NCBI RefSeq assembly: GCF_022869805.1
Contig: NZ_CP094974.1
Location: 4,836,001 to 4,900,000 of the forward strand
Length of the DNA: 64,000 nt
Source of the DNA: Halosolutus halophilus
GTDB lineage: Archaea > Halobacteriota > Halobacteria > Halobacteriales > Natrialbaceae
Reading direction: 5' to 3'
How positions within the stretch are numbered: position 1 is the stretch's first letter; every line of letters starts with the position of its first letter. Positions 12,982-43,761 of this stretch are shown in pieces. The notes under the pieces were generated by a model. The model was not told where the DNA came from and searched no databases. It saw nothing but the letters and a program-made list of their open reading frames with translations. The translations under genes and the position numbers were made by a program.

Positions 12982-13155
12982 CGCTAGCTCGTCGTTCGAC
13001 GGTGACGGTGGTAAACCCCCGCGGTGACGACCCTCACGGTCGACCGCTCGGTCTTCCGGTACCGGTCCGCACGGTTCGACGGTTCCCACGGCTCACGATC
13101 GAGTACGCGTCAGATACGACGATCGAGCACGGATCAACTGCGACGACCGCCCGAA

Positions 13156-26280: not shown

Positions 26281-28002
26281 TCAGGGAGCGACGTAGTCGC
26301 ATTCGCCCGCACACTCCTCCTTGAGGGGCGTCTCGCCGAGTACTTGCTCGGGTCTGGCCCCGCTCCGGAAGACGGTGATTCCCTTGACTTCGAGTTCCCG
26401 AGCAGTGAGGAAGACGTCTTTGACGTTCTCGACGGACGCCGATCGTGGCAGGTTCACCGTCTTGCTCACGGCGTTGTCGACGTGTTCCTGGAACGCGGCC
26501 TGAACGCGGAGGTGGCCGTCGGCGGGCACGTCGTGGGCCGTGTGGAACAGCGGTTTCACGTCGTCCGGAATCTCCTCGACGTTCTGGATCGTGGTCCGAT
26601 CGTGGAGGTCCGCCACGAGCTCCTCGGAGTAGAACCCGCGCTCTTTCGCGAGGTCGACGAACCGGTCGTTGACGATTTCCAGTCCCCCCATCACCTGCTT
26701 CGTATAGGCCACGTTGTATATCGGTTCGATACTGGCCGAGCAGCCCGCGATGAGCGAGATCGTCCCCGTAGGGGCGACGGTCGTGGTCGTGGCGTTTCGC
26801 ATCGGCTCCGCCCGAGTGGAGTCCTCCCACTCCGGGAACGGCCCCCGTTCATCCGCCAACTGCCTGGACGCTGCCCACGATTCGTCGTGGATGAACGCCA
26901 TCACCTCGCTTGCGAACTCGACGGCCTCTCGGGAGTAGTACGGGATCCCCAGATCCACGAGCGTGTCGTGAAATCCCATCACTCCCAGCCCCACCTTGCG
27001 GTTCGTCTCCATCAACTCCTCGATCTCGGGGACCGGAAATTCGGACATCTCGATGGTGTCGTCCAGAAAGCGGACGCCCAGGTGGACGGTCTCGCGGAGT
27101 TTGTCCCAGTCGACCGCCTCGCCGTCGGTGTGTCGAGCGAGGTTGATCGAGCCGAGGACGCACGCCTCGTAGGGGAGCAGGGGGACCTCGCCACAGGGGT
27201 TGGTCGCCTCGAGTCGGCCGAGGTGAGGCGTCGGGTTGTGTTCGTTGATCGTGTCGAGAAAGAGAAGCCCCGGATCGCCGGTTTCCCACGCCAGTTCGGC
27301 GACCAGGTCGAGGACGTCGTCAGGATCCGCCTGTCCCACGACCTCGTCCGTCCGCGGATTGACGAGGTCGTAGGGCTCGCCGGCGTCGTATGCCTCCCAG
27401 AACGTCGCGTCCGTCCCCACCGAGAGGTTGAAGTTCCGAAAGGCGTCCGCCCCTTCCTTGGCGGTGACGAACGCCTCGACGTCGGGATGGGTGGCGTCGA
27501 GGACGCCCATGTTCGCACCGCGTCGACGGCCGCCCTGCTTGATCTGCTCGGTGGCCGCGTCGAAGATCCGCATGAAACTCACCGGCCCAGAGGCCACGCC
27601 ACCCGTCTTCTTGACGACGTCTCCCTCGGGCCGGAGATTCGAGAACGAGAATCCGGTGCCGCCGCCGCTCTGGTGGACGAGTGCGGCCTGCTTGAGAGCG
27701 GTGAATATCGCCTCCAGCGAGTCCCCGACCGGCAGGACGAAGCAGGCGGCGAGTTGCTGGAGTTCCGTCCCGGCGTTCATGAGCGTCGGCGAGTTCGGGA
27801 GGAACTCGAGGTTCGTCATCGCTTCGTAGAACTCCTGTTCGGTCGCTTCGACGTCCCCGTCGAACTGTGCCTCTGCCTGCGCGAGGGTTTCTGCCACGCG
27901 ACGGAACATCCCTGCCGGCGTCTCGACGACCTCCCCGTCTTCGTCCCGTCGGAGGTATCGTCGGCGAAGGACCGTCTCGGCGACGGTATCGATCGAGTCC
28001 AT
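26281..28002 (-). CDS. nrdJ: Adenosylcobalamin-dependent (class II) ribonucleotide reductase
   Basis: The ATG at 28002 gives 573 residues of the ribonucleotide reductase catalytic barrel. Key parts are NSPTLMNAG, the first disulfide Cys87 in LAACFVLP, the finger loop NPCGE (about 268-272) with the radical Cys and acid, the partner Cys region YEACVLGS, and PTGTISLIAG. The C-terminal CAGECDY holds the pair that could re-reduce the active site. It needs no oxygen, so it can make deoxynucleotides in anoxia. The protein lacks an ATP cone and is shorter than most class II enzymes, resembling mycobacterial NrdZ in this respect. Confidence 0.92.
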   Translation of the reverse strand: MDSIDTVAETVLRRRYLRRDEDGEVVETPAGMFRRVAETLAQAEAQFDGDVEATEQEFYEAMTNLEFLPNSPTLMNAGTELQQLAACFVLPVGDSLEAIFTALKQAALVHQSGGGTGFSFSNLRPEGDVVKKTGGVASGPVSFMRIFDAATEQIKQGGRRRGANMGVLDATHPDVEAFVTAKEGADAFRNFNLSVGTDATFWEAYDAGEPYDLVNPRTDEVVGQADPDDVLDLVAELAWETGDPGLLFLDTINEHNPTPHLGRLEATNPCGEVPLLPYEACVLGSINLARHTDGEAVDWDKLRETVHLGVRFLDDTIEMSEFPVPEIEELMETNRKVGLGVMGFHDTLVDLGIPYYSREAVEFASEVMAFIHDESWAASRQLADERGPFPEWEDSTRAEPMRNATTTTVAPTGTISLIAGCSASIEPIYNVAYTKQVMGGLEIVNDRFVDLAKERGFYSEELVADLHDRTTIQNVEEIPDDVKPLFHTAHDVPADGHLRVQAAFQEHVDNAVSKTVNLPRSASVENVKDVFLTARELEVKGITVFRSGARPEQVLGETPLKEECAGECDYVAP

Positions 28003-28271: not shown

Positions 28272-28787
28272 TTATTCCGCTCCGCCGTTGGTCGACCCCT
28301 CGTCCGTCGGATCGGCGTCTGGCTGACTCGTCGCGTCGGATTGCGGGCCGCCACCGGCCTGTGCCTCCTCGCCCTCTCCCCACCCGCCAGCGTCGACTAC
28401 TTCGAAGAGTTTGCGCCAGTTCTCGTCGTCTTCGCTCTCGGGCAGCTGGTCGCGGAGTTGCTGGAAGTCGGACGGAGGAACCGCGGTTTCGACGAGGTCG
28501 ACGACGACCCGGGCGTGGTAGGCCGCATCCGATCGATCGACCCCTTCGATCTCGCTGACGCGGTCGACGAACTCCTGCCAGTCGAATCGCTGGCCGTGTT
28601 CGTGGACGGCACCGGACAGGTACCACCTGATTTCGAGCGGGAGCGAGCCGGCGAGGTCGTCGGCGTTCCCCGCGGGGATTCGCTGGCCCAGCGTCATAAG
28701 GGTCGCCCGGATCGCCCGTACTGTTCGGCCGGTATCCGGGAGCTCGAGCCGGTGCTGAACCGTACCGGTGAATTCGTCGAAGTTCAT
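28272..28787 (-). CDS. DUF2267 domain protein with acidic tail
   Basis: The ATG at 28787 gives 171 residues. The DUF2267 core has MNFDEFTGTVQHRLELP, TLMTLGQRI, LAGSLPLEIRWYLSG and FDWQEFVDRVSEIE. A Gly-, Asp- and Gln-rich tail of about 45 residues follows and is probably disordered. It is a paralogue of the protein at 11230. It lies upstream of the ribonucleotide reductase on the same strand, about 270 bases away. Confidence 0.9.
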   Translation of the reverse strand: MNFDEFTGTVQHRLELPDTGRTVRAIRATLMTLGQRIPAGNADDLAGSLPLEIRWYLSGAVHEHGQRFDWQEFVDRVSEIEGVDRSDAAYHARVVVDLVETAVPPSDFQQLRDQLPESEDDENWRKLFEVVDAGGWGEGEEAQAGGGPQSDATSQPDADPTDEGSTNGGAE

Positions 28788-29722: not shown

Positions 29723-30364
29723 CTACTTCAGCGTCCGGGCGAACCAGTCGGCTGCCACGTCGGCGACTTCTTCGAGTTCGCCCTCCCCTTCGAAGAGATG
29801 CCCCGCCCCCTCGACGACGTGCAAGTCCTTTTCGCAGGAAAGCTTGGCTTCGGCCTCGCGGTTGAGTTCGAGCACCTGGGTATCGGCACCACCGACGATG
29901 AACAGGGTCGGTGCCCGGACCTCGTCGAGGACGTCGGACGCCATGTCGACGCGGCCGCCGCGCGAGACGACGGCGTCGACGTCGTCCCGCAGGCGCGCCG
30001 CTGCCCGGAGCGCGGACGCCGCTCCCGTACTGGAGCCGAAGTACCCGACGGGCGTGTTACGAGCGTCCTCGCGATCCCACAGCCACTCGGTAGCTGCGAC
30101 GAGACGGTCCGTCAACAGTGGAATGTCGAAGCGATTGTCGCGGATCCGGTCTTCTTCCTCGGTGAGCAGGTCGAACAACAGGGTCCCGAGTCCTCTGTCG
30201 CGGATGACCTCCGCGACGAAGTTGTTGCGAGGGCTCTTTCGACTGGAGCCGCTCCCGTGAGCGAAGACGACCACTCCCCGTGCATCCGCCGGGATTTCGA
30301 GCATGCCTTCGAGCGTCACGTCGTCGACCGGGATGGACGCGAGGGTCTCTGATCGCGGTGCCAT
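29723..30364 (-). CDS. Dienelactone hydrolase-like alpha/beta hydrolase
   Basis: The ATG at 30364 gives 213 residues. It has VVVFAHGSGSSRKSP for the oxyanion region, GYFGSSTGAAS with the nucleophile Ser, TLFIVGGADTQV for the acid and GAGHLFEG with the catalytic His. The TATA-like TGTATAAAG lies about 28 bases upstream. It diverges from a phosphoribosyltransferase across a 108-base promoter with a large dyad. In mycobacterial Rv0571c, a phosphoribosyltransferase and a hydrolase domain of this type are fused, which suggests the two proteins act together. Confidence 0.88.
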   Translation of the reverse strand: MAPRSETLASIPVDDVTLEGMLEIPADARGVVVFAHGSGSSRKSPRNNFVAEVIRDRGLGTLLFDLLTEEEDRIRDNRFDIPLLTDRLVAATEWLWDREDARNTPVGYFGSSTGAASALRAAARLRDDVDAVVSRGGRVDMASDVLDEVRAPTLFIVGGADTQVLELNREAEAKLSCEKDLHVVEGAGHLFEGEGELEEVADVAADWFARTLK

Positions 30365-30394
30365 ATTCGACCTGACACCGTCGGCGATCTTTAT

Positions 30395-30431
30395 ACAGGG
30401 GGGTCGTCCCCCGCGGGGGTATCCCACCTGT
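30395..30431. promoter_or_regulatory. Shared divergent promoter with 37-base dyad
   Basis: The core CCCCCGCGGGGG (30408-30419) is a perfect palindrome, and the dyad extends imperfectly out to ACAGG (30395) and CCTGT (30431). It lies between the TATA-like TGTATAAAG of the hydrolase on the minus strand and TGTTATATG of the phosphoribosyltransferase on the plus strand. A regulator bound here could control both genes at once. Confidence 0.6.
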
Positions 30432-30472
30432 GTGTTATATGTAGCCGCTTTCCGTGTTCCCATCCGAGAACG

Positions 30473-31111
30473 ATGCGAGAAACTCGCCGATTCAAAGACC
30501 GGATGGACGCCGGAGAGCAACTCGCGGAGGTACTCCGTGAGCGGGAGGTCGACGCGGATATCGCGCTCGCCATCCCCCGGGGCGGCCTCCCGCTCGGACG
30601 ATCGGTGGCCAACGCGCTCGACGTCCCGCTCGACATCGTCGTCGCGAAGAAGATCGGTGCCCCGGGCAATCCGGAGTACGCCATCGGTGCCGTCGCGAGC
30701 GACGGGAGCGTCTGGCGGAACGAACAGGGATTTCGTGGATCGGGAGCCGACGAGGAGTACTTCGAACGACAGCGCGAGGAGGAAGCAGCGAACGCCCGTC
30801 GGAAGGCCGAACGCTACCGGGGCGATCGATCGGAACCCGACCTGACCGACAAGACCGTGGTCGTCGTGGACGACGGCGTGGCGACGGGATCGACCGTCAG
30901 GGCCTGCCTCAGGAAGCTCAACGAAACGGACGCCGACCGTATCGTGCTGGCAGTCCCAGTCGGCCCACCGGAGACGATCGCCGAACTGGAGGCCGAGGCC
31001 GACGAGGTCGTCTGTCTCGAGACGCCGCGCGGTTTCAGGGGCGTGGGGCAGTTCTACCAGACCTTCGGCCAGGTGACCGACGAGGAGGCGATGGCGTATC
31101 TGGAACGGTAA
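30473..31111 (+). CDS. Phosphoribosyltransferase
   Basis: The 212-residue type I phosphoribosyltransferase has the PRPP loop VVVVDDGVATGST at about 126-138. N-terminal ALAIPRGGLPLG and VAKKIGAPGNPEYAIGAV are typical of the stress-associated, ComF-unlike branch seen in mycobacterial Rv0571c. The substrate base is unknown. It diverges from the hydrolase and has a TATA-like TTATATG about 40 bases upstream. Confidence 0.9.
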   Translation: MRETRRFKDRMDAGEQLAEVLREREVDADIALAIPRGGLPLGRSVANALDVPLDIVVAKKIGAPGNPEYAIGAVASDGSVWRNEQGFRGSGADEEYFERQREEEAANARRKAERYRGDRSEPDLTDKTVVVVDDGVATGSTVRACLRKLNETDADRIVLAVPVGPPETIAELEAEADEVVCLETPRGFRGVGQFYQTFGQVTDEEAMAYLER

Positions 31112-31269: not shown

Positions 31270-32487
31270 ATGGATATCGCTGACATCGTTTCGAAAGAGT
31301 ACGTCGAATTCACCCCGGAGACGCCCGTCTCGAAGCTCGTCGGTACGTTCGCGGATTCCGACGTCAAGGGCGTCGTGATCCGCGACGACGAGTTCGAGGG
31401 GGTCGTCACCAGGAGACAACTCGCTACCTCGCATCGCCAGCCCAACGAAAAGCTCGGGTCGCTCGTCTGGCACGTGCCTCGGCTCGCGCCGGACGAGGAC
31501 GTCCGCAAAGTGGCACAGCTCATGATCGACAGCGATTCGCAGCTGCTCCCCGTGTTCGAGGGCCGGGAGCTGATCGGCGTCGTCACCGTCGACGCGATCC
31601 TCCGGAAGGTTAAACCGTTCCTCGATGCGGCGACCGTTGCCGAGGCCCACTCCGCCGATCTGGTCTCGGTCGATTCGACGTCAACCCTTGGCAACGCACT
31701 CAACGTCTTCCAGGAGAACCACATCACGCACCTTCCGGTCGTCGAGAATAGCACGGCAGTCGGTATCCTCAGCCTCTACGACGTGACCGGCATCACGGTT
31801 CGGGCCGAGGTGCAGAGCCAGGGTGGCGATGCGGGCGGGACGGATCCGTTCGGGGGCGAAATATCCGACAGTACGGCTCGCTCGCGCCGCGGCGGCTTCG
31901 GCGCCCGGGAGGGTGAGTCCGAGCGGATGCTGGACCTCCCGGTCCGGGACATCATGGTCTCGCCCGTGCGCACGATTCGCCCGGACGAGACGCTCGATAT
32001 CGCGGTCGAAGAGATGTTCGAGATCAACGCGTCGTCGCTGGTCGTCACCGAGAACGGCGATCCCCACGGCATCGTCACGAAGACCGACGTTCTCGACTCG
32101 CTCACGTGGGAGGCCGGCGGGAACCGGGGCGTCCAGGTCTACGGGACCAACCTGATAGACGACGTGACGTACGACGAGATCGTCGCGAAAGTCGAGAAAT
32201 TCGACGACAGGGATCACGGGATGAACGTGCTGGACGCGAAGGTCCACCTCCACGAACACGACGAGACGCGCCGCGGGCGGCCGCTCCTGCTCGCCCGGAT
32301 TCGGCTGCACACCGACCGGGGGCTGTTTATCGCCTCCGGGGAGGGGTACGGCGCGAGTCACGCGATCAACGAGGCGAGCGAGGTTCTGGAGCGCCAGATC
32401 CGCGACGAGAAGACCTACGGCCGGAGCAAGAAGCCCCCGAGCGAGGAGTTCTGGGAGAAACGGTTCGGGTGGCTGCTCGAGGAGTGA
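31270..32487 (+). CDS. Four-CBS-domain protein with C-terminal HPF/S30EA-like domain
   Basis: The 405-residue protein has four CBS repeats (about 1-60, 65-115, 125-180 and 225-285, the last reading LVVTENGDPHGIVTKTDVL). They are separated after the third by a Gly- and Arg-rich linker. Residues about 295-390 have the beta-alpha-beta-beta-beta-alpha order of ribosome hibernation factors: VQVYGTNL, a helix, VLDAKVHLHEH, LLARIRLHTDRG, LFIASGEGYG and a final helix AINEASEVLERQI. I infer an adenylate-sensing ribosome hibernation factor. A paralogue is at 42553. Confidence 0.85.
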   Translation: MDIADIVSKEYVEFTPETPVSKLVGTFADSDVKGVVIRDDEFEGVVTRRQLATSHRQPNEKLGSLVWHVPRLAPDEDVRKVAQLMIDSDSQLLPVFEGRELIGVVTVDAILRKVKPFLDAATVAEAHSADLVSVDSTSTLGNALNVFQENHITHLPVVENSTAVGILSLYDVTGITVRAEVQSQGGDAGGTDPFGGEISDSTARSRRGGFGAREGESERMLDLPVRDIMVSPVRTIRPDETLDIAVEEMFEINASSLVVTENGDPHGIVTKTDVLDSLTWEAGGNRGVQVYGTNLIDDVTYDEIVAKVEKFDDRDHGMNVLDAKVHLHEHDETRRGRPLLLARIRLHTDRGLFIASGEGYGASHAINEASEVLERQIRDEKTYGRSKKPPSEEFWEKRFGWLLEE

Positions 32488-39430: not shown

Positions 39431-40801
39431 CTACTCCGAAATCCGGGACTCGATCGTCGCCCGCAGTTCGTCCGTCTCCTCCCGAAGTCCGTCGCTGATC
39501 CGGACGTCGTAGGGTTCGGGATCTTCGATTCGCCGGTGTTCCTCCGGCAGTTTCTGGCGCTGCTCTCGGGCAGTCTCCCGTATTTCGTCGAGAGCAGGGA
39601 TCTCGTAGCTTCGATCGCCGTCTTCGATGACGGTGACCAGTTGCTCCTCCCCGGGAGACTCCTCGCCACGGAGACCGAGAACGTCGCCGGTGTACCGGCC
39701 GTCGGATTCGATCCGGCGCACGCTTTTTGCCCCCGGATAGGTCACCTTGCCTTTCGAGAGCTTCATCGACGGCTGCATCTCGCCGTCGCGTTCGACCGCC
39801 ACGAGTTTGTAGACGCCCTCGACTTTGGGGGCGTCCGTGCTCGTCACCAGGGCGGTCCCCGGCCCGAAGCCCGCCCCGACGCCGTCGCGATCGAAGAACT
39901 CGTGGATGGCGTACTCGTCCATGCCGGAGGAGATGAACTGGTCGATCTCCGGGATGACCTCGTCGACGGCCTTCGAGAGCGCCGGGAGATCGCCCGAGTC
40001 GAGGCGAACGCCGCGGAGGTCCACCTCCCTGGTCTCGGCGACGTCCTTCGCGATCTCCGCCCCCCTGACGGTGTCGTAGGTGTCGATCAGGAGGACGCTC
40101 TCGTCTCCGTACTCGTCGACGAACGCCTCGAACGCGTCGCGTTCGTGTTCGAAATTCTGGACCCACGAGTGGGCCATCGTTCCCGAGACGGGGATGTCGA
40201 ACGCCTCTCCCGCGGCGACGTTCGAGGTGGCGTCGAAGCCGCCGATGTACGCGGCCCGAGCGGCCTTCATGGCGGCGTCGGTGCCGTGGGCGCGTCGGGA
40301 GCCGAAGTCGACCAGTCGCTGGCCGTCCCCCTCGCGATCGATCACGTCCCGCATCCGGCTCGCTTTCGTCGCGATGAGCGACTGGTAGCCGACCTGGTTG
40401 ATCAGTGCGGTCTCGAGGAGCTGGGCCTGCAGGATGGGCGCCGTCACTTCGAGCAACGGTTCGTTCGGGAACACCAGCGTCCCTTCGGGCAGCGCGCGTA
40501 CCTCGCCGGTGAACTCGAAATCGGCCAGGTACGACAGGAACGCGTCGTCGAATCCCTGCTCGGTCAGGTACTCGATCGCTCGCTCCCCGAACGAGAGGGT
40601 TTCGACGTAGTGGATCGCCTGCGCTACTCCCGCGGCCACCATGTAACCTCGATTCGGCGGCAGATCGCGGACGAAGAGGCTGAACGTCGCTCTCGGGTTG
40701 TGGTCCTGTTCGTGGTAGGCCTGCATCATCCGCAACTCGTAGAGGTCGGTGAACAGCGGGAGGTTCTGCTCCGTCAGGTAGCCGAAGGTCGTCTCGGACA
40801 T
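39431..40801 (-). CDS. pncB: Nicotinate phosphoribosyltransferase
   Basis: The ATG at 40801 gives 456 residues. It begins LPLFTDLYELRMMQAYHE, has FGSRRAHGTDAA, GTMAHSWV with the phosphorylated His, LIDTYDTVRG and RLDSGDL, and GFGPGTALVTS. These define NAPRTase, which makes nicotinate mononucleotide from nicotinate and PRPP in the NAD salvage pathway. The gene ends in a charged helical tail. Its mycobacterial counterpart PncB2 lies in the dormancy regulon. Confidence 0.93.
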   Translation of the reverse strand: MSETTFGYLTEQNLPLFTDLYELRMMQAYHEQDHNPRATFSLFVRDLPPNRGYMVAAGVAQAIHYVETLSFGERAIEYLTEQGFDDAFLSYLADFEFTGEVRALPEGTLVFPNEPLLEVTAPILQAQLLETALINQVGYQSLIATKASRMRDVIDREGDGQRLVDFGSRRAHGTDAAMKAARAAYIGGFDATSNVAAGEAFDIPVSGTMAHSWVQNFEHERDAFEAFVDEYGDESVLLIDTYDTVRGAEIAKDVAETREVDLRGVRLDSGDLPALSKAVDEVIPEIDQFISSGMDEYAIHEFFDRDGVGAGFGPGTALVTSTDAPKVEGVYKLVAVERDGEMQPSMKLSKGKVTYPGAKSVRRIESDGRYTGDVLGLRGEESPGEEQLVTVIEDGDRSYEIPALDEIRETAREQRQKLPEEHRRIEDPEPYDVRISDGLREETDELRATIESRISE

Positions 40802-42552: not shown

Positions 42553-43761
42553 ATGAACGTTCGCGAAATCGTTGCCGACGAGTTCGAGACGTACGACGAG
42601 TCGACGCCGGTGTCGAAACTCCGCGGCGCGTTCGAGGAGACCGGTCAGCAGACGCTGTTGATCGCCCGGGACGGCGCGTTCGAGGGGATCGTCACTCGGC
42701 GGGACGTCATCTCGTCCCACCAGAAGACCTCCCGGAAGGCGGCGTCGCTCGTCCGCCCGGTCCCGACGATCGGTCGCGACGAGGACGTCCGAGAGGTCGC
42801 GCGGCTCATGATCGCCGGCGACACCAGGGTCCTTCCGGTGCTCGAGGGCGACGACCTCGCCGGTGTCGTCCGTGCGGACGACCTCCTGGAGCAGGTCCAG
42901 CCGTACCTGTCGGTGCTCGCGGTCGACGACGTCGCGACGAGAGAGGTCGTCACCGTGCGCCCGGACGAGTCGCTGGGTGCGGCGCTCTCGACGTTCCGAA
43001 CCGAGCGCATCCAGCACCTGCCCGTCACCGAATCCGGGTCCGACGGGGTCGTCGGCATCGTGAGTCTCGCCGACGTCCTCGAGTTCGTCACGCGGGAACT
43101 CCAGCGGTCGCAGGGCGGCGATCCGGCGGCCAACGTGGACGCCGCGTCCGGCGGCCACCACGGCGGGTTCGGCGCCCGGGAGGGCGAGAGCGACGACCTG
43201 CTCAGCCTGCCGGTGCGTAACGTGATGGTCGAGACCCTCGGAACGGCACGGGCGAGCGAGACGATCGACGAGACGCTCGCGACGATGGTCGAGCACGGGG
43301 CCTCCTCGTCGATCGTTCTCGACGAGGACGGCAACCTCGACGGGATCGTCACGAAGACGGACCTGCTCGAGTCGCTGACCTGGACCGACGAGGGACGGCT
43401 CCCGATCCAGGTGTACGGCGCGGACCTCCTGACGGACCTCTCCCGATCGGAACTGGCCGATCGGATCGAGGCGGTCGCGGGGAAGTACGAGGACATGCGC
43501 GTCCTCGAGGCCAAGGTCCACCTCCAGAAGCACACCGAGCAACTCCGGGGCGTTCCCCTGCTGCTCGCCCGGGTTCGCCTCTACACCGACAAGGGGCTGT
43601 TCGTTGCCTCCGGTGAGGGGTACGGTGACGGCCACGCCGTGTCGCTCGCCCTGAACGCGGTCGAACGCCAGATCCTCGAGGGGAAGACCCACGCCCTGAA
43701 CGAGAGGACCGGCGACGACGCGGACGTCGCCAAGATGTACGGCTGGTGGCTCAGCGAGTAG
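42553..43761 (+). CDS. Four-CBS-domain protein with C-terminal HPF/S30EA-like domain
   Basis: The ATG at 42553 gives 402 residues that match the protein at 31270 along its whole length. CBS repeats include GAFEGIVTRRDV, VLPVLEGDDLAGVV, HLPVTESGSD...GIVSLADVL and IVLDEDGNLDGIVTKTDLL. The HPF-like end reads IQVYGADLL, then VLEAKVHLQKH, LLARVRLYTDKG, LFVASGEGYG and ALNAVERQIL. The TATA-like GGTATACC lies about 30 bases upstream. Two such factors in one island suggest different cues or ribosome states. Confidence 0.85.
   Translation: MNVREIVADEFETYDESTPVSKLRGAFEETGQQTLLIARDGAFEGIVTRRDVISSHQKTSRKAASLVRPVPTIGRDEDVREVARLMIAGDTRVLPVLEGDDLAGVVRADDLLEQVQPYLSVLAVDDVATREVVTVRPDESLGAALSTFRTERIQHLPVTESGSDGVVGIVSLADVLEFVTRELQRSQGGDPAANVDAASGGHHGGFGAREGESDDLLSLPVRNVMVETLGTARASETIDETLATMVEHGASSSIVLDEDGNLDGIVTKTDLLESLTWTDEGRLPIQVYGADLLTDLSRSELADRIEAVAGKYEDMRVLEAKVHLQKHTEQLRGVPLLLARVRLYTDKGLFVASGEGYGDGHAVSLALNAVERQILEGKTHALNERTGDDADVAKMYGWWLSE

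Follow-up and report, generated by a model that had tools for sequence, protein, structure and literature searches.

By sequence, the divergent hydrolase and phosphoribosyltransferase (PRT) genes described here make up a real, conserved two-enzyme module, the split variant of an uncharacterised fusion family, and the overall explanation that we favour, and regard as probable, is that of a co-regulated stress module acting in nucleotide or cofactor recycling. The module is supported by the homology of both proteins, their recurring linkage, their motif residues and the conservation of the hydrolase-side promoter. The window (i.e., the whole stretch of 64,000 nucleotides that was analysed) belongs to a haloarchaeal genome of 5.06 Mb in a single contig. 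The hydrolase ORF lies at 29723-30364 on the minus strand, the PRT ORF at 30473-31111 on the plus strand, and a divergent regulatory region of 108 bp (30365-30472) separates them, so that the genes, their coordinates and the gap are all as originally predicted. The same genome has another PRT (62%) and another hydrolase (73%), both more distant in sequence and not paired, with 27 kb between them.

The hydrolase (213 residues) matches the Pfam DLH family (PF01738; E = 7.8e-7, 29.3 bits, above the curated cut-off of 21) and is a relative of PDB 2o2g both by sequence (E = 8e-60) and by fold (E = 4.6e-27, TM 0.95, 52% identity). Its structural model (pLDDT 93, pTM 0.91) is a minimal, lidless alpha/beta hydrolase with 2o2g as nearest structure. 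Three residues, Ser112, Asp161 and His189, are invariant among 14 aligned sequences and likely form the catalytic triad, with Ser112 in the nucleophile motif G-S-S-T-G. Classical dienelactone hydrolases have a Cys nucleophile, and the assignment to that class was ruled out by Ser112 in its place; to judge from these residues, the protein is a serine hydrolase of the DLH fold. The PRT (212 residues) matches Pfam Pribosyltran (PF00156; E = 2.5e-19, 69.6 bits, above the curated cut-off of 26.3) and is a relative of PDB 1wd5 (TT1426; E = 2e-42). A predicted PRPP-binding loop, VVVVDDGVATGST, with two acidic residues, is kept in the aligned bacterial relatives, and the domain match and the loop together make this likely a type I phosphoribosyltransferase with predicted PRPP-dependent activity.

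Both proteins align with the two halves of a single Rhodococcus opacus fusion (WP_065493537.1; 60% identity for the hydrolase and 42% for the PRT), which is encoded by one CDS, PRT first and then hydrolase. One genome per species was scanned with the fusions as query, and at least 64 of the best 80 of 582 confirmed bacterial and archaeal loci are in-frame fusions (62 scored so by script, to which inspection added the intact fusions of Mycobacterium sp. SM1 and of a Mycolicibacterium bin), a share that is inflated because these loci were picked by their likeness to the fusions. The 80 loci come from actinobacteria, proteobacteria, acidobacteria, one cyanobacterium, myxobacteria and others. The intact in-frame fusion in Mycobacterium sp. 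SM1 confirms that the same two domains are joined in mycobacteria; Mycobacterium tuberculosis is in neither the 80 loci nor the 12 named control genomes, and R. opacus and Mycobacterium sp. SM1 stand here for the type of Rv0571c, which we take to carry the hydrolase domain. In Mycobacterium leprae (locus L176, 5001-6259) the PRT part still has an open reading frame and the hydrolase part has decayed, with many stops, so that one half can be retained without the other. On a Rhizobium plasmid, and likewise in Salipiger, a single CDS runs from PRT through hydrolase to an erythromycin esterase-like (Ere) domain. Separate PRT and hydrolase genes in tandem are found in a Bathyarchaeota bin, where by eye an Hsp20-like gene lies upstream, and in a Methanosarcina bin. 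The model of a fused Nocardia protein (pLDDT 90, pTM 0.52) shows two well-predicted domains, whose nearest structures are 2o2g and 1wd5, and a low-confidence linker at residues 217-226; the domains are predicted to be tethered loosely and not built into a rigid channel, so that no channelling is indicated.

Within the haloarchaea, 92 of 119 relatives have the PRT and 43 the hydrolase (E up to 1e-20); with stricter thresholds applied to 392 genomes of the order, 56 have the PRT, 111 the hydrolase and 38 both. Seventeen of these 38 genomes have the two genes head to head within 140 bp; two have them convergent within 400 bp, one has them head to head around one gene, four keep both within 10 kb, and in the other 14 they are farther apart or on other contigs. 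A neighbourhood conserved in other haloarchaea, as had been predicted, is therefore what we see, and the first of the observations named as telling against the pairing, a lack of such conservation, does not hold; fused, tandem and divergent homologues were all found. PRT genes without the hydrolase and hydrolase genes without the PRT also occur. Judged by gene positions, the linkage of hydrolase and PRT is strong, and the two enzymes may share a substrate.

The pair sits in a dense stress-protein island (window 3798-45895) with 16 USP genes by Pfam and three more by BLAST, three CBS, two DUF2267 and three pyridoxamine-oxidase-like proteins, a nicotinate phosphoribosyltransferase (39431-40801, minus strand; Pfam NAPRTase domains), a class II (B12-dependent) ribonucleotide reductase (RNR) of the NrdJ/NrdZ type (26281-28002, minus strand; NCBIfam TIGR02504, 684 bits, cut-off 400) TreT and, by eye, thioredoxin, among others; haloarchaeal USPs are treated in passages of PMC7601130. 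The PRT gene is commonly adjoined by a gene (31270-32487, plus strand) whose product has four CBS domains and a tail weakly similar to S30AE (ribosome hibernation), and a DUF2267 protein (28272-28787, minus strand) is a frequent neighbour of the hydrolase. The S30AE match scores 22.1 bits, below the cut-off of 23.7, and a 44% paralogue of the CBS protein lies at 42553-43758. CBS genes also stand beside class II RNR genes related to that of the window in Mycobacterium sp. SM1 (L180, 7552-11670) and in Nocardia elegans (L181, 8044-11109), in the latter with an adjacent USP gene.

Three further enzymes recur near the pair. Ere-like genes form an Ere-hydrolase-PRT operon with 4-base overlaps in Novosphingobium and a PRT-Ere arrangement in Deinococcus deserti, directly follow the PRT in G082 (of the window's order) and lie close to the pair in G110; overall, they fall within the flanks of 11 of the best 80 loci and of three of 33 haloarchaeal loci. 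The PRPP synthase gene (prs) is the next gene after the R. opacus fusion, overlapping it by 4 bases, and adjoins the hydrolase in Salinirubellus, G387 and G351; in all, it occurs at three of the 33 haloarchaeal and three of the best 80 loci. AMP phosphorylase (TIGR03327; 619.7 bits, cut-off 535) is found at six of the 33 haloarchaeal loci, in two of them (G050 and G021) between hydrolase and PRT. In G326, an RNR gene directly follows the PRT. The 64-kb window itself yielded none of prs, AMP phosphorylase and Ere. Background on AMP phosphorylase and R15P in archaea is given in parts of PMC9700705, and a section of PMC4410610 reports PRT and Ere domains in Rv2030c. To the extent that gene neighbourhoods are informative, the recurrence of Ere, PRPP synthase and AMP phosphorylase points to nucleotide/PRPP metabolism in times of stress.

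Could the two genes simply reside together in a mobile stress-gene island, reshuffled as a group and acting on unrelated substrates? The crowding of the window with USP genes (16 supported by Pfam and three by BLAST) would fit, as would the finding that each gene occurs alone and that the PRT keeps its CBS-protein neighbour in G345, G376 and G052, where the hydrolase has moved away. However, in-frame fusion at no fewer than 64 of the best 80 loci, in several phyla, is hard to obtain from shuffling alone even with a share inflated by selection, and the same holds against the three-way fusion or operon with one and the same Ere family; we therefore consider mere co-residence rather unlikely. A different question is how the haloarchaeal arrangement came about. 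The original prediction saw in the pair a split form of the Rv0571c fusion, and the high similarity to the actinobacterial fusions (60% for the hydrolase) speaks for an origin by splitting of a bacterial fused gene, but trees built from 68 hydrolases and 69 PRTs place the haloarchaeal proteins in one clade each (support 100/99 and 100/100, respectively), both of them outside the actinobacterial fusions. The deep forks of the trees are weak, and the neighbours of the haloarchaeal clades are unfused proteobacterial hydrolases (weakly) and proteobacterial PRTs. With separate tandem genes at two other archaeal loci as well, we regard such a split as very improbable, and independent fusions of neighbouring genes appear at least as likely an origin of the different forms.

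Turning to the control region, its best conserved part is, by sequence comparison, the hydrolase promoter, mostly its TATA box and leader. We compared 22 divergent gaps of 77-114 bp, that of the window and 21 others; the 22 came from the 17 head-to-head genomes, three further genomes of the first search and two named plasmids (of Salinigranum marinum and Salinirubellus sp.). They were sorted into 15 clade groups by visual comparison of the gaps, at a stage when no trees had yet been made. The hydrolase TATA box (TATAAA, or TTTATA as read on the plus strand; 30390-30395, minus strand) spans -30 to -25 from the ATG, a position conserved across clades, and the transcript is likely leaderless. A conserved GGTGTC (30374-30379, minus strand) lies between it and the start codon, and an upstream element, GGGACGACCCCCCTGT (30395-30410, minus strand; consensus about GGAnnGnCC), directly precedes it. 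The leader-only profile ranks the GGTGTC site 3rd of 127954 window positions, and the TATA box alone comes 15th; the promoter profile that includes the TATA box, built from the hydrolase promoters of other clades, ranks the window's hydrolase promoter 1st without G082 in the profile and 2nd with it (of about 128,000), and the upstream element without the TATA box, in a leave-clade-out profile, comes 498th of 127970 (top 0.4%). The upstream element also precedes some hydrolases that have no adjacent PRT. On the other side, the PRT TATA box, TTATAT (30435-30440, plus strand), was assigned from sequence and clade comparison, and a PRT-side element reaches high strength in certain clades only (G083, G108, G021 and G319); its copy in the window is weak (2.1 bits).

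Between the two TATA boxes lie an imperfect 37-base dyad (30395-30431), with arms ACAGG (30395-30399) and CCTGT (30427-30431) and 12 of 17 positions paired, and a perfect palindrome, CCCCCGCGGGGG (30408-30419). Arms, core and location between the TATA boxes are as the original prediction had them; its union of core and arms into one dyad did not survive, since the 12-mer is centred on 30413.5 and the 37-mer on 30413 (i.e., they are half a base out of register) and they are thus two overlapping symmetries. Nor does CCCCCGCGGGGG hold up as the operator core that it was proposed to be: it is absent from all 21 other divergent gaps, including that of G002, a genome of the same genus and the nearest relative with the pair (proteins 91-93% identical), where the core is broken and the spacing 3 bases shorter, with both arms identical. 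The window contains 54 perfect 12-bp palindromes, three of them of G+C only, and CCCCCGCGGGGG with at most one mismatch occurs once in it versus 0.80 times expected, i.e., at chance level.

The dyad is matched or bettered in 26 of 100 dinucleotide shuffles when the whole gap and any centre are allowed, and has p = 0.022 with its centre set at the midpoint of the two TATA boxes. Over the 22 gaps (15 clades), central symmetry is above that of shuffled sequences (72.7 versus 53.5, sd 3.7; reached in 0 of 400) and falls from 78 to 51-64 when the centre is slid by 5-25 bases. Against 31 control divergent haloarchaeal promoters, from which the hydrolase/PRT pairs themselves had been removed, the mean z is 1.21 (15 clades) versus 0.51 (p = 0.016 by rank test and 0.030 by t test). 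The excess over the controls is modest, the symmetric sequence is clade-specific, and many clades have no individually significant dyad.

Searches beyond the gap gave the following. In 40 regions upstream of hydrolase, PRT and DUF2267 genes, a Gibbs-type motif search recovered little more than the TATA box and no island-wide motif, and GGnGGGnYnGTCG shows no enrichment in the window (55 versus 47.5 expected). ACAGGnGGG is enriched there (five versus 1.27 expected, 0 of 100 shuffles), two of the five being the dyad's own arms. The pattern GGGTCGTCN{0,4}CCGCGGGGG has two matches in the 5.06-Mb genome, one here and one in a USP promoter (13016-13033, minus strand), where a stretch at 13007-13033 (minus strand) has about 28 bases (86%) in common with the dyad core; in G002, the USP promoter lacks this second copy, and we therefore did not count it as a sign of a regulon. 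By eye, GGGGGGTCGTCCCCC inside the dyad (30395-30431) resembles boxes such as GGGGACGATCGTCCCC among the OsdR boxes published in PMC5069765, as given in parts of that paper, a likeness that is likely coincidental.

How might this symmetry be read? One dimeric regulator could switch both genes by binding to the 37-base dyad, with the GC core at its centre. The symmetry is indeed centred midway between the TATA boxes (with the p value of 0.022 found in the window), both arms are unchanged in G002, and a dyad resembling TTCC-n9-GGAA, with letters specific to each clade, can be made out by eye in G326, Salinirubellus, Salinigranum, G316, G083 and G108; however, G002 lacks the core and has the shortened spacing, the core occurs at chance level, and the dyad is not individually significant in many clades. 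In close relatives, then, the arms are kept (in G002) and the core is lost from all the other gaps, and a true dimeric operator of this kind seems unlikely to us. That the symmetry is merely the mirror image of two archaeal core promoters (upstream element plus TATA box), with no dedicated regulator, we hold to be a good deal more plausible, if still short of probable: the control promoters are themselves somewhat symmetric, and TATA box and leader account for most of the conserved profile, but the excess over the controls runs counter to it, and the conserved GGTGTC in the hydrolase leader and the weak TATA boxes of many clades suggest regulated promoters. A joint operator for both genes is possible as a candidate. 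In the explanation that we favour, the one 108-bp region would drive both genes through two promoters set head to head, each made up of a short upstream element and a TATA box of its own. A factor that responds to stress and reads these upstream elements would increase the expression of the two genes jointly, and the dyad would be a trace of the head-to-head layout and not one site centred on CCCCCGCGGGGG.

For the enzymes themselves, co-regulation, a shared substrate and the reaction are what we infer, the common acceptor and the recycling role being drawn from neighbours and fold. The module occurs in three forms, as two divergent genes, as two genes in a tandem operon or as a single fused polypeptide. 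The PRT would transfer ribose-5-phosphate between PRPP and an acceptor resembling a base, and the lidless serine hydrolase would break an ester, lactone or comparable bond in that acceptor or in its precursor, with PRPP synthase, AMP phosphorylase and the Ere-like enzyme acting beside the pair, in the recycling of nucleotides or cofactors in slow-growing cells. In this precise wording, with PRT and hydrolase acting on a common acceptor, the reaction is doubtful. The joint reaction that shared regulation and fusion had been held to imply does not follow, given that each gene also occurs alone among the 119 relatives and that the fused domains are predicted to be loosely tethered; the 14 of 38 genomes that keep the genes far apart, and the much greater frequency of the PRT than of the hydrolase in the 119 relatives, likewise count against a joint module, as do the unpaired further copies of both genes in the same genome and the absence of prs and AMP phosphorylase from the window.

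A wider and more tentative proposal, which we would not call probable, is that PRT, serine hydrolase and Ere, supplied by PRPP synthase and linked to AMP phosphorylase, form a hitherto unrecognised pathway of nucleotide/PRPP metabolism under stress in haloarchaea, some other archaea and many bacteria, that haloarchaeal stress islands are the archaeal counterpart of the DosR gene set, and that Rv0570-Rv0573c came from the same gene pool. In the open-access PMC literature (subscription journals being outside our scope), we recognised no paper on this pair or on the PRT/hydrolase/Ere trio. As separate divergent genes, each half can be removed or assayed alone in harmless, genetically tractable haloarchaea, and the neighbours in relatives (PRPP synthase, AMP phosphorylase and Ere-like enzymes) narrow the search for substrates to PRPP and nucleotide chemistry. 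The archaeal pair is thereby a simple place to learn the role of enzymes that are fused in many bacteria, mycobacteria included.

Several known systems invite comparison. The Anabaena variabilis dienelactone hydrolase-like protein (2o2g) is like the window hydrolase in sequence and fold; it is named after dienelactone hydrolase, whereas the window protein has Ser at the nucleophile position. TT1426 of Thermus thermophilus (1wd5) shares the fold and sequence of the window PRT and was deposited as a hypothetical protein, a 208-residue chain without a fused hydrolase. In the Actinomycetota fusions of the Rv0571c type (R. opacus, Mycobacterium sp. SM1 L099 and Nocardia elegans L100), both domains are homologous to the window proteins over their full length, with motifs conserved, but they form one polypeptide, PRT then hydrolase, where the window has two ORFs on opposite strands. 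The fusions and operons of Rhizobium, Salipiger and Novosphingobium draw on the same PRT and hydrolase families and add Ere; unlike them, the window has no Ere-like gene by tblastn. Passages of PMC5309233 place Rv0570, Rv0571c and Rv0573c in the DosR regulon, with Rv0571c given as 'function not yet characterized', and parts of PMC4428469 treat DosR core genes, describing the mycobacterial NrdZ as resembling archaeal enzymes and the NrdZ/pncB2 region as possibly acquired. As far as these passages go, the mycobacterial DosR regulon, with its locus Rv0570-Rv0573c, and the window have the class II RNR (NrdZ), the PRT and hydrolase, the nicotinate PRT and the USP families in common; gene order differs, and the likeness is one of gene families only.
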